This document shows positions 3,329-14,361 of a DNA stretch of 14,384 nt, piece after piece. The number at the start of each line of letters is the position of its first letter. Within the stretch, counting starts at the first letter, position 1. A model generated the notes under the pieces. The model had not been told where the DNA came from and made no database searches. It was given only the letters and a program-made list of their open reading frames with translations. The stretch is taken from assembly GCA_943355045.1 (NCBI GenBank), contig CALRDY010000006.1, forward strand, positions 1 through 14,384, given 5' to 3'. The translations under genes and the position numbers were made by a program. This DNA comes from Candidatus Nomurabacteria bacterium. GTDB lineage: Bacteria > Patescibacteriota > Minisyncoccia > Phycocordibacterales > Phycocordibacteraceae.

Positions 3329-5017
3329 ATGACCGATACTGTCGCGCAAGTTAAGGAGCGCCTGGGCATCCAGGAAGTGATTGCTCCGTATGTGAAGCTC
3401 ACGCGAGCGGGGAAGTCGCTCCGCGGATTGTGTCCGTTCCACAAAGAAAAAACGCCGAGTTTCCATGTCTCGCCCGAGCGCGGTACCTGGCACTGCTTCG
3501 GGTGCGGGCTCGGCGGCGATGCATTCTCGTTCATCGAGAAGGTCGAGGGAGTTGATTTCAAAGGCGCGCTGAAAATCCTTGCCGAGAAAGCGGGAGTGCA
3601 GATCGAGTACGCGGGCGGCGGCGCGGGAAAGGAGGAGGCGTCGAAGAAAGATCGGCTGCGCGCGCTCATGGCGCGCGCGGAGCAGTTCTATGCAATGCAG
3701 CTCGCGGGCACCGAGGCCGAAGCGTATGCGAAGAAGCGAGGCCTCTCTATCGAAAGCATTTCCGCGTGGCGACTCGGCTACGCACCGGACGCGTGGCGCG
3801 CGCTCCTCGAAGCATTTGTCGCCGAAGGATTTTCCACGGGAGAGTTGCTTGCTGCGGGGCTCATCAAAGAGGCCGATGGGAAACCAGGGACGTACTATGA
3901 CCGCTTCCGCAATCGGCTCATGTTCCCGATACATGATTCTGCCGGGCATGTCGTCGGATTTACTGGACGCACATTGTCCGCGGATGAGCCGGCGAAGTAT
4001 CTCAATAGTCCTGAAACGGACCTCTACCGCAAATCAGAGATCCTTTTCGGCATGGATGTCGCAAAGGACGCAATACGTACGCGCGGCTTTACCTGTCTTG
4101 TCGAGGGGCAGATGGACGTGCTGCTCGCGCATCAGGCGGGCTTCACGAATGCGGTCGCACTTTCGGGCACCGCGCTTTCCGAGCGGCACCTCGTCCTCAT
4201 GAAGCGGTACAGCGAGAACCTCATGCTCGTGCTCGACGCTGACGCAGCTGGTCTCAAAGCGACCGCGCGCTCGGCAGCGCTCGCGCTCCATGCGGGATTG
4301 CGCGTGAAGGCGGCGCAGCTGCCGCTCGGGAAGGATCCAGCCGACCTCATCAGCGAAGATTCGCAAGAATTCTCGAAGCGTATCGCCGCCGCAAAACCGA
4401 TCGTCGAATTCTTTCTCGGAGAACTTGCGCAGCGGGAAAGCGATCCGCATCGGCTCCTGCGCACGGCCGAGGGCATCGTGCTCCCTTTGATCGCGGCGAT
4501 ACCGAGCCCTATGGAGCGCGAACATTTCGTGCAGGCGGCCGCCCGAGCGCTCGGGCTCTCGAGCGAAGCCGTCCGCGAGTCGCTCAAACGTCTCCCGAAG
4601 CAGCCTTTTGCCGAAAGTGTCGCGCTAAGCGCGGCACCGCCAAAGGCGGTGCCGCGCAAGCCGTCGGAACTCCGTTCCGAACAGCTTCTTGCCGTTCTCC
4701 ACGCCTATCCCGATACGCCGCTTGCAGAGCGCGTCAAATCGGAGTATTGTCGAATTACTGAGGCTCAAGAGCTGCCGCTCGTCACTCTCCCGGAATCGAC
4801 CTTGTTCTATGCGGAACAGGCGTTCGGCGAAAGCCCCGGAGAGGACGCGGCAGACGAGCTTCTCCACGCCTTCGAAGAAGCGGTGATCCGCGAGGCGTAT
4901 CAAGAAGCAGTACGAAATTTACGTAGAGCCGAAGGCGCGACTGACGCCTCCGCGATTGAGAGTGCTCAGGCAGCGTGCGCGAAACTCGCCGCCCGCCTCG
5001 CCGCATTCGGTCACTAA
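3329..5017 (+). CDS. dnaG: DNA primase DnaG
   Basis: Synthesises RNA primers at the replication fork and docks on the DnaB helicase. The 562-residue product is normal length for DnaG. The N-terminal CHC2 zinc finger uses C35, H38, C56 and C59 ([12 protein letters not shown] then WHCFGCG). The catalytic core with its TOPRIM fold follows: VEGQMD with E259, and the LDADAAG metal site with D303 and D305. The C-terminal portion (from about 445) is helical, acidic and Ala-rich, as expected for the helicase-binding domain. A Pro/Ala-rich linker at about 434-443 is encoded by a perfect 12-bp hairpin (separate entry). The ATG at 3329 gives the expected N-terminus and has no Shine-Dalgarno. The gene is followed after 23 nt by rpoD, the classic dnaG-rpoD pair, here without rpsU upstream. 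Confidence 0.96.
4630..4656. repeat. Perfect hairpin inside dnaG linker
   Basis: A 12-nt arm (4630-4641, cgcggcaccgcc) is followed by the loop aaa and its exact complement (4645-4656). It codes in frame for [10 protein letters not shown], between the primase core and the helicase-binding domain, where insertions are tolerated. The arms are too long and GC-rich for casual codon choice, and the hairpin resembles the other palindromes in this window in form. Confidence 0.7.
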
Positions 5018-6761: not shown

Positions 6762-6783
6762 ACTTGTCGCTATAGCGACAAGT
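6762..6783. promoter_or_regulatory. Perfect 22-bp palindrome, candidate operator
   Basis: The half-site acttgtcgcta (6762-6772) is followed with no loop by its exact complement (6773-6783). It lies between the divergent promoter of the 42-aa gene and the start of the helicase gene. The absence of a loop and a T-run argues for a dimeric protein-binding site rather than a terminator. Which regulator would bind is unknown. Confidence 0.5.
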
Positions 6784-12456: not shown

Positions 12457-12484
12457 ATTGTACCCCTTACCACTTCCAATTCAA
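12457..12484 (-). promoter_or_regulatory. hisS promoter, apparently leaderless
   Basis: The minus strand reads TTGAAT (12484-12479, 4/6), a 16-nt spacer, then TACAAT (12462-12457, 5/6), then cgggcat and ATG. Transcription would begin at or one base before the start codon. The -35 lies in the loop and the spacer in one arm of the 16-bp hairpin described separately. Confidence 0.6.
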
Positions 12485-12510
12485 AACAGAGGAAGTGGTA
12501 AGGGGTTGTA
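12458..12510. repeat. 16-bp perfect hairpin flanked by TTGTA direct repeats, at the hisS promoter
   Basis: accccttaccacttcc (12462-12477), a 13-nt loop, and the exact complement (12491-12506). If the outermost base of each arm is counted as flank, the repeat ccccttacc... is bordered on both sides by ttgta (12458-12462 and 12506-12510). That is what a 43-bp insertion with a 5-bp target duplication would leave. It lies directly after the PH-domain gene's stop. No T-run follows on either strand. Confidence 0.62.
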
Positions 12511-13398: not shown

Positions 13399-14361
13399 TT
13401 ATTGCGCCGAACGAGCCCTCGTATGCCTACATACGAGAAAGCGCGGTGTGCCGTACTGGTCGGTGCGTATCTCGGCGGAGAGGCCGTGTGCCTCAAAAAG
13501 TGCGGCCGCGGCTTTTGTGTGTTCGTTGTCGCATTCGATCCAGGCGACGCCGCTCGGGGTCAAATGTTTCGGGAGTTCCGCCGCGATGCAGCGTATAAGA
13601 TTAAGACCATCGTCGCCCGCGAAGAGGGCGAGCGCCGGCTCGTGGTCGGCGACGCTCGCGTCGAGTGTGCGACCAGAAGGAATGTAGGGCGGATTCGCAG
13701 CGATAATGTCAAACTTCATGCCGTCGAATGGCTCGAATAAGTCGCCGGTGCGGACGTCGGCGCGAGAAGCGTCAAGATTATTTTCGCGGATATTTTTCTG
13801 GATAGTCGCTTCGTGTGCGGGATCAATCTCGCCGAAGTACACCTGCGCATCGAGCAGCTTCGCAAGCGTCGCGCATCCGATAGCGCCGGAGCCGGCGCAG
13901 AGATCGAGGAGTGTTAAGCCTGAATACCCAGAACCGCTCGCCTTCGGAACCGCATATTTTTCTGCTAAAAAATTGCTCTGACTCGCGCTGTCGCGCTCCG
14001 TACGTTTCTCAGTCGAGCGCTCCCGGGTATTCCGTATGCTTTGGAAAAGAAACCGCAACTCATGCATGCGATTTCTGGGCACGGAATCATTTTCTGCTGA
14101 AAATGTTCCTCCTGCTCGGTCCGTCGACCTGTGCAGAGTCCCAGAAATCGCATGCATGAGTTGCTCGGTCCACCATTCCGTTTCGGGGCGTGGAATGAGC
14201 GGCTTCGAGTCGAGGTAAATCTTCAGGCCGAGAAAGGGCTGCCAGCCGATGACATAGCCGAGCGGCTCGCCGGAGGCGAGCCGCTCTTTGTCGGCTTCGT
14301 ATTCCGCAGTCTCCTTGCCGCCGTATTTTTCGTCGAGGAGCCATTGCTCATCCTTAGTCAT
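13399..14361 (-). CDS. prmC: Release factor N5-glutamine methyltransferase PrmC/HemK with a large in-frame insertion
   Basis: Methylates the GGQ glutamine of peptide-chain release factors, using S-adenosylmethionine. From the ATG at 14361 (MTKDEQWLLDEKYGGKE) there are 320 residues. The N-terminal substrate domain ends at PLIPRPETEWW (54-64). The SAM-binding motif LLDLCAGSGAIG is at 151-162, the acidic motif FGEIDP at 176-181, and the catalytic NPPY at 223-226. The C-terminal fold is complete to TPRFLVCR. Between the two domains, residues about 69-148 are not PrmC sequence: they derive from two palindromic DNA modules (separate entries) and include the repeated motif FSAENDSVPR (87-96) and FLAEKYAVPK (131-140). 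The last residues after VCR are also hairpin-encoded. An in-frame GTG at 14379 is possible but adds atypical residues, and the frame is open to the window edge. No Shine-Dalgarno is seen. All catalytic motifs are intact, so the enzyme is probably active. Confidence 0.9.
   Translation of the reverse strand: MTKDEQWLLDEKYGGKETAEYEADKERLASGEPLGYVIGWQPFLGLKIYLDSKPLIPRPETEWWTEQLMHAISGTLHRSTDRAGGTFSAENDSVPRNRMHELRFLFQSIRNTRERSTEKRTERDSASQSNFLAEKYAVPKASGSGYSGLTLLDLCAGSGAIGCATLAKLLDAQVYFGEIDPAHEATIQKNIRENNLDASRADVRTGDLFEPFDGMKFDIIAANPPYIPSGRTLDASVADHEPALALFAGDDGLNLIRCIAAELPKHLTPSGVAWIECDNEHTKAAAALFEAHGLSAEIRTDQYGTPRFLVCRHTRARSAQ
13418..13437. repeat. Hairpin at the 3' end of prmC
   Basis: ctcgtatg (13418-13425), loop ccta, catacgag (13430-13437): a perfect 8-bp stem. 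It encodes the L-V-C-R-H-T-R segment, where PrmC proteins usually end, and so accounts for the added C-terminal residues. There is no T-run. Confidence 0.5.
13922..14032. repeat. Palindromic module A inside prmC
   Basis: Outer arms gaataccc (13922-13929) and gggtattc (14025-14032) enclose a core with a small hairpin ttttt/aaaaa (13957-13961 with 13967-13971, loop ctgct). The core sequence cggaaccgcat..ttttctgct.aaaa..ttgctctg.ctcg matches that of module B in the same orientation, although the arms differ. On the coding strand it is in frame and encodes FLAEKYAVPK. Confidence 0.6.
14055..14164. repeat. Palindromic module B inside prmC, 25-bp perfect arms
   Basis: Two perfect 25-nt inverted arms (14055-14079 and 14140-14164; each contains catgcatg and atttctggg or its complement) enclose 60 nt. 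Inside, acgga (14081-14085) pairs with tccgt (14120-14124), and cattttc (14088-14094) pairs with gaaaatg (14099-14105) around the loop tgct. The module reads through in frame in prmC, encoding FSAENDSVPR. It is the longest perfect inverted repeat in the window. Confidence 0.8.

Follow-up and report, generated by a model that had tools for sequence, protein, structure and literature searches.

Palindromic modules with a conserved core and differing arms, carried in frame between the two domains of PrmC in a Candidatus Nomurabacteria genome

How does a gene for a conserved protein come to carry two palindromes inside its reading frame, and where do the arms of these palindromes come from? The question is raised by prmC in the window, by which we mean the whole 14,384-nt stretch of DNA analysed, a single contig of a draft genome of 452 kb in 51 contigs (G000 below; G-numbers stand for genomes, L- and C-numbers for loci or copies). 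The family profiles match the window protein on both flanks of the insert: TIGR00536 (hemK_fam) exceeds its cut-off, and TIGR03534 (RF_mod_PrmC) reaches 176 bits (E 6.8e-52), under its curated cut-off of 199. The best solved HemK/PrmC chain, 1sg9, aligned only to residues 32-76 and 155-264 of the query, on either side of the insert. The open reading frame extends past the ATG to 14379/14382, close to the contig end, and its translation has no stop across the whole insert, in which two modules, B and A, are located between PRPETEWW and LDLCAGSG (Table 1). With the frame open, the cores of the modules related and the PrmC families on both sides, the original prediction of two related palindromic modules in frame is borne out. 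The proposed alignment with close relatives revealed many with a far shorter linker, for example 63 nt in G014 versus 273 nt in the window genome. The locus shows how repeats can make a conserved protein longer where its two domains meet.

Table 1. Position of prmC and of the parts of its two palindromic modules in the window.
Feature	Coordinates	Strand	Basis or remark
prmC	13399..14361	-	ORF from ATG at 14361; TIGR03534 and TIGR00536 matches
Module A arm, decayed	13922..13950		outer paired part 13922-13943
Module A core, 53 nt	13951..14003	+	similarity to other copies by DNA search and model
Module A core motif TTTTCTGCTAAAAA (hairpin 1)	13958..13971		sequence
Module A second arm, decayed	14004..14032		outer paired part 14011-14032
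Module B arm, 3' of core in prmC sense (NRMHEL side)	14055..14079		perfect inverted repeat
Module B core, 60 nt, three-way junction	14080..14139	+ (R1 orientation)	folding and model match
Module B core motif TTTTCTGCTGAAAA (hairpin 1)	14090..14103		sequence
Module B arm, 5' of core in prmC sense	14140..14164		covers QL of the EQL codons (EQLMHAISG)

The arms of module B form an exact 25-bp inverted repeat with 60 nt between them, as had been predicted, and the module, folded as DNA, reaches -45.3 kcal/mol, where shuffled sequences average -13.75 (z -12.1; none of 200 shuffles folds as well). B is common to three species, those of the window genome, of GW2011_GWA1_56_13 (GWA1_56_13 below) and of G033, and in the latter two EL(R/H)FLDLC comes directly after it; both loci were found with peptide patterns from the window PrmC, which biases the comparison to similar relatives. 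The prmC of G033 has no R1 match (see below) at E<=0.1, as we read it because another insert splits the core, and it was assigned to B by protein kinship. Between the three species the arms differ at 5, 5 and 7 of 25 positions, three of them each time on both sides, with two mismatches each in GWA1_56_13 and G033. The original prediction would have been refuted by close relatives that have the segment without palindromy; relatives do have the B segment, but its palindromy is retained there. EQL or EQM is present at the equivalent of the arm 5' of the core in many orthologs without B, whereas the codons of the other arm have no counterpart in such relatives. Because these codons stand there in orthologs without B, the arm on the start-codon side is read as probable host DNA, and the arm on the NRMHEL side as its putative inverted copy; the residues of the copy side (MHEL, THEL, ICEL) vary with those of the host side (MHA, MSA, TNA).

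Module A is more decayed. The 8-bp arms originally ascribed to it are only the outermost part of arms with 22 paired positions and 4 mismatches, and its fold is moderately above chance (z -2.5; equalled by 3 of 200 shuffles). The claimed alignment of the two cores at the DNA level holds, with a 26-nt stretch common at 77% and a match of B to a model built without it, and so does the likeness of FSAENDSVPR to FLAEKYAVPK, both being encoded by hairpin 1 of the respective core and the bases after it. A is missing in the prmC of GWA1_56_13 and of G033, so that these two relatives give its empty site. The prmC of G002 is without B and has a stretch resembling the first half of A (VRNAQERSPEERTER), which makes A probably older than the split of G000 and G002. 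A and B are two successive insertions, B first: two other species have B as well, and neither of them has A.

The cores belong to a dispersed family. A DNA search of the window genome aligned the core of A to copy C5 (86% over 64 nt) and to C23 (84% over 62 nt), and a third copy, C14, resembles B more weakly (72%). These copies have inverted repeats of their own, perfect over 21 bp in C5 and 24 bp in C14, and 30 bp at 87% in C23; all five folded copies have a closing stem and two hairpins, the stem of A being interrupted. A covariance model, R1, built from the three copies C5, C23 and A, detects B at E 3e-5 and finds nine places in the window genome at E<=1, namely A, B and seven others, the match at C9 being weak (E 0.003) and C3 being truncated by a contig end. 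The further copies that had been expected in the source genome are hence present by both methods. In a search of 58 genomes with stricter filters, at which weak matches are lost, 36 (the window genome included) have R1 matches at E<=0.1, with 17 in G046 and a maximum of 27 in G051. Relatives found by their PrmC in a named collection carry the labels Candidatus Kaiserbacteria, Candidatus Paceibacterota and Parcubacteria group. Copies stand in reading frames (A and B, the prmC of G016 and of G012, and a dnaE-like gene of G002 and G013), behind genes whose translated flanks read as rpmE, rplL, recA, L28 and rpoD, and, in the window genome, apparently between divergent genes (L046, L011); gene names at loci other than prmC come from reading the translated sequence, not from family searches. 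At four loci searched against Rfam at E up to 10, no family reached its gathering score; the six matches obtained (E 0.02 to 7) lie far under these scores and were taken as chance. One query of phage records, with the C5 copy, gave no match, and among the matches listed, judged by title, the literature on palindromes, repeats and terminators of CPR, Parcubacteria and Kaiserbacteria held no fitting description of the dispersed core.

Arms were compared over the 12 nt on each side beyond R1. Of 74 matches at E<=0.01, 72 could be used, the other two lying at contig ends. The matches come from 70 sources, which include 60 regions taken mostly around the best matches; this biases the sample to strong ones, and since R1 itself spans 10 bp of arm, its matches favour intact stems. 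Complementarity beyond the model amounts to at least 10 of 12 positions in 38 of the 72 copies and to at most 6 of 12 in 16. In six genomes chosen as variable-armed, 38 copies have a mean self-complementarity of 10.3/12, versus 4.5/12 when arms are swapped within the genome (218 ordered pairs; the weak C9 was left out of the G000 set). Four copies of G046 (L123, L124, L125 and L127) have identical cores and are each self-complementary at 11-12 of 12 positions just beyond the model, while their arms agree with one another at only 7-9 of these 12 positions, which are AT-rich. Cores are also identical in L106-L108 of G051, whose arms are alike at the inner bases and diverge outward; arms are partly common among copies in G037 and G051. 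In G056 (12 copies fetched, identity 0.99) and G049 (4 copies, identity 1.00) they are fixed, from which it follows that arms can travel with the core, and this counts against a single rule. The idea of a conserved core with changing arms holds and extends well beyond the two modules, with the exception of these two genomes, and arms that differ by locus hint at an origin by copying of the surrounding host DNA. As a separate observation, the R1 cores at L110-L121 (G056) and L129-L131 (G037) lie within larger units that have common ends like GAATTACGAAACT.

Arms also change between orthologous copies, and they mostly do so on both sides at once. Between G000 and G002, the pair C14/C21 differs at 8 of 24 arm positions, all eight both-sided, and C23/C20 at 5 of 20, four of them both-sided; C5/C26 has no change at 21 arm positions. 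Over 66 distinct rows of an alignment fitted to R1, on which these pair counts rest, 26 of 27 pairs have both-sided changes (367 cells, where shuffling gives 102 on average), and the outer helix sums to 203 both-sided, 11 one-sided and 46 unpaired cells. Mispairs read on the model strand comprise 23 G-T versus 42 A-C and 110 others among 1928 pairs, so that there is no G-U excess.

The prmC linker is a recurrent target in relatives. In 13 of 20 linkers measured (G000, G002, G016, G013, G007, G017, G003, G005b, G012, G008, G004, G033 and GWA1_56_13) the stem beats all 100 shuffles. The R1 core is present in G000, G016, G012 and GWA1_56_13; G005b and G008 have a different common insert with unlike arms; and a bare palindrome stands in G017 (22-bp arms, loop 0), G002, G003 and G013 and, by eye, in L250, a linker read separately from the 20. 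Conserved codons occupy the arm nearer the start codon in B (EQL), G012 (LAH) and G004 (ELV), and in these few cases, G004 being without R1 core, that arm is read as probable host sequence. Further inserts were seen at these loci. The common insert of L065 and L072 (prmC of G008 and G005) encodes LGLAARSA and occupies the same linker with arms that differ by species, and L069 (prmC of G004) has more inserts in the catalytic domain, one of them reading LPTGRQA, which we take to be a repeat common in such bacteria. A second repeat, of about 57-60 nt where counted, is nested within one of the hairpins of the R1 core at L085 (G002), L091 (G027), L208 (G014) and L248 (prmC of G033), and several of these nested repeats start with sequence like CACCACRNGRGYACTTC.

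Other loci present a similar picture. The 3' region of the rpmE-like gene was read in 30 species and measured in 28, two with less than 25 nt before the next gene being left out, and where the prfA start was not seen (6 of 28) 200 nt were used. The stem is above 40 shuffles in 17 of the 28. Seven species have the R1 core, with stems of 12-22 bp and at most one mismatch, and all of them except G015 are among the 17; a long stem with another insert occurs in G020, G001 and G021, the insert of the latter two being common and their arms different (by eye); and six species (G065, G014, G070, G073, G009 and G018) have a bare hairpin with a perfect stem of 16-25 bp and a loop of 1-5 nt. The dnaE-like gene, open in frame in all seven species compared, has the R1 core in G002 and G013 and a weak match in G014 (E 0.03); G062 has a palindrome of a different kind there (by eye), and G033, G015 and G027 lack an insert. 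In the lepB-/pth-like spacer the core is present in G000; other inserts, without R1 match, occupy G002, G027 and G062, a short hairpin stands in G014 and nothing in G033 and G015 (all by eye). Between G051 and its sister G082 a comparison was made at five loci, L103/L242 being unalignable beyond the gene: the L28-like gene has the core in G051 and a bare terminator in G082 (12-bp stem, 6-nt loop), at two loci the core of G082 is another one, enclosed by perfect arms of at least 20 bp (23 bp at L245; the other by eye), and one has the core as in G051 within other perfect 23-bp arms. For the rpoD-like terminator, the gene end was readable in 3 of 12 other genomes (G035, G041 and G053). At one and the same place, related species may thus have the core in common or differ from one another by having an unrelated insert, a hairpin without core or no insert at all.

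Some neighbouring observations complete the survey. A copy is shared by L090 (G027) and L097 (G013) at 98.5% over 1194 nt, yet the dnaE-like insert is present in only one of these species. The window itself has a perfect 16-bp hairpin with a 13-nt loop (ACCCCTTACCACTTCC) and no core at 12462-12506, at the start of a frame named hisS-like from reading the sequence, and perfect inverted repeats with arms of 11-13 bp and loops of 0-4 nt at 2959-2986, 4629-4657 and 6762-6783.

The explanation that we tentatively favour, at somewhat below an even chance, is a dispersed repeat of the order in which only the three-way-junction core of 53-60 nt and about 8-10 bp of stem are conserved, while the outer arms are the property of each locus. 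The core would cap a long hairpin, in many cases a near-perfect one, and would nucleate fold-back (template-switch) copying, by which the arms are made and mended: during replication the nascent strand may fold at the core and copy the host sequence that precedes it, which would both lengthen the arms with host sequence and keep them complementary. In prmC, the core would have entered the interdomain linker twice, B before A and in frame, and one arm of B would still consist of host codons (EQL), the other being their inverted copy. The data show the family, its conserved cores with locus-specific arms, the both-sided changes, the shared B, the empty site of A and the differing contents of orthologous places; template switching, its polarity and the way in which the core moves are inferred. 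We prefer fold-back copying because changes often affect both sides and seldom one alone, because G-U pairs are not in excess, because template switching is reported to produce perfect stems at a single stroke and to restore pairing (PMC8794818), and because stems stand in frames and, as it appears, between divergent genes, places at which the structure of a transcript should be of no consequence. Perfect coreless palindromes in the same prmC linker, such as the one of G017, also speak for it. Against it stand the unchanged arms of C5/C26, the fixed arms of G056 and G049, the 16 of 72 copies with little complementarity beyond R1, the leaning of R1 and of its alignment towards intact stems, and the dnaE-like arms of G002, whose longest common word with three relatives lacking the insert is 6-8 bases, so that host origin was not seen there; a rule by which one arm is always host DNA is unsupported in this gene. 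Among the loci compared, no empty site keeping one arm alone was found, and the copying step was thus not caught. A stronger form, in our judgement unlikely, would have the mobile element be little more than the loop: the core alone is inherited, and each insertion copies neighbouring host DNA backwards, giving nearly every copy a unique, self-corrected stem, even inside genes.

Alternatively, the core may enter the loop of pre-existing hairpins, mostly intrinsic terminators, and the arms would then be the old stem. The bare hairpins behind the rpmE-like gene, with stems of 16-25 bp as against 12-22 bp in species with the core, the bare terminator of G082 where G051 has the core, and the A/T tracts often found at the arm ends of G046 and G051 copies (by eye) are consistent with this; in copies of these two genomes, though not at prmC, stems that lie behind a gene and lead into a run of T were noted by eye. 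A terminator is unexpected inside the prmC and dnaE-like frames or, apparently, between the divergent genes at L046 and L011, copies which rule out terminator loops as the sole target, and among the loci compared no site had the same stem without the core. We regard this explanation, too, as doubtful, although it keeps a real share of our expectation. An ordinary mobile palindromic element of MITE or RPE type, bringing its arms along and differing by subfamily divergence, would account for the fixed arms of G056 and G049, for the direct repeats that flank some G056 copies as judged by eye (L120, for example, lies between two copies of GATTATTTAATTAT) and for the lack of both G002 dnaE-like arms in relatives without the insert; it is rendered improbable by identical cores with different arms within G046 and by both-sided changes at orthologous copies.

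Strong covariation, together with the copies behind rpmE-, rplL-, recA-, L28- and rpoD-like genes, would fit a structured RNA or terminator module in which selection on the transcript keeps the pairing while the stem sequence drifts. The copies in frames and, apparently, between divergent genes, the G-U pairs not above A-C mispairs, the scarcity of one-sided changes and the Rfam result at four loci make it very improbable. A false inverted duplication by the assembler, conceivable in a fragmented draft of 51 contigs with prmC at a contig end, is hardly credible, since the frame is open and B recurs with its own differences in separate public assemblies (GW2011_GWA1_56_13 and JALHQL01), which already refutes it for B.

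Stem changes on both sides commonly count as proof that selection acts on RNA structure, yet here they occur inside a reading frame as well. Such changes in frame, together with identical cores that carry different perfect arms, suggest that replication itself may write and repair hairpins, and with its many copies in many species and some empty sites, the core family offers material to test this.

Several known systems resemble the repeat in part. REP elements and their Y1 transposases likewise form dispersed palindromes, but the R1 repeat has a three-way-junction core, and a Y1 transposase was rejected as its mover: the family PF01797 (Y1_Tnp) occurs in 35 of 58 genomes and in neither G051 nor G046, which have 27 and 17 R1 matches. 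Rickettsia palindromic elements had been named as the closest parallel. They are described as small palindromic repeats with terminal inverted repeats, which insert into frames, those of conserved genes among them, and are translated (PMC2229807). The parallel stands for insertion in frame into protein genes but not for the arms, since by that description terminal inverted repeats are a feature of the element, whereas in most genomes looked at the R1 arms vary from copy to copy around a constant core. The BOX, RUP and SPRITE elements of pneumococcus are, in the available parts of their description, MITE-like, short and structured, nest in one another and are sometimes terminator-like (PMC10969869); the R1 repeat resembles them in being short and structured, in nesting and in the terminator-like look of some copies, and differs in that its arms are unshared between copies in most genomes looked at. 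The mitochondrial genes of Nematomorpha contain coding palindromes as well, likewise long and perfect, but there both arms encode conserved protein, and here one arm only; the abstract mentions no dispersed core (PMC6649704). Template switching, or quasipalindrome mutation, is said to create perfect stems in one event and both-sided changes with pairing restored (PMC8794818, available parts); R1 copies likewise often have near-perfect stems, arms that change together and few one-sided intermediates. It is described there as a mutation process of RNA-gene stems, and those parts do not mention a dispersed conserved core such as the one that R1 copies carry.
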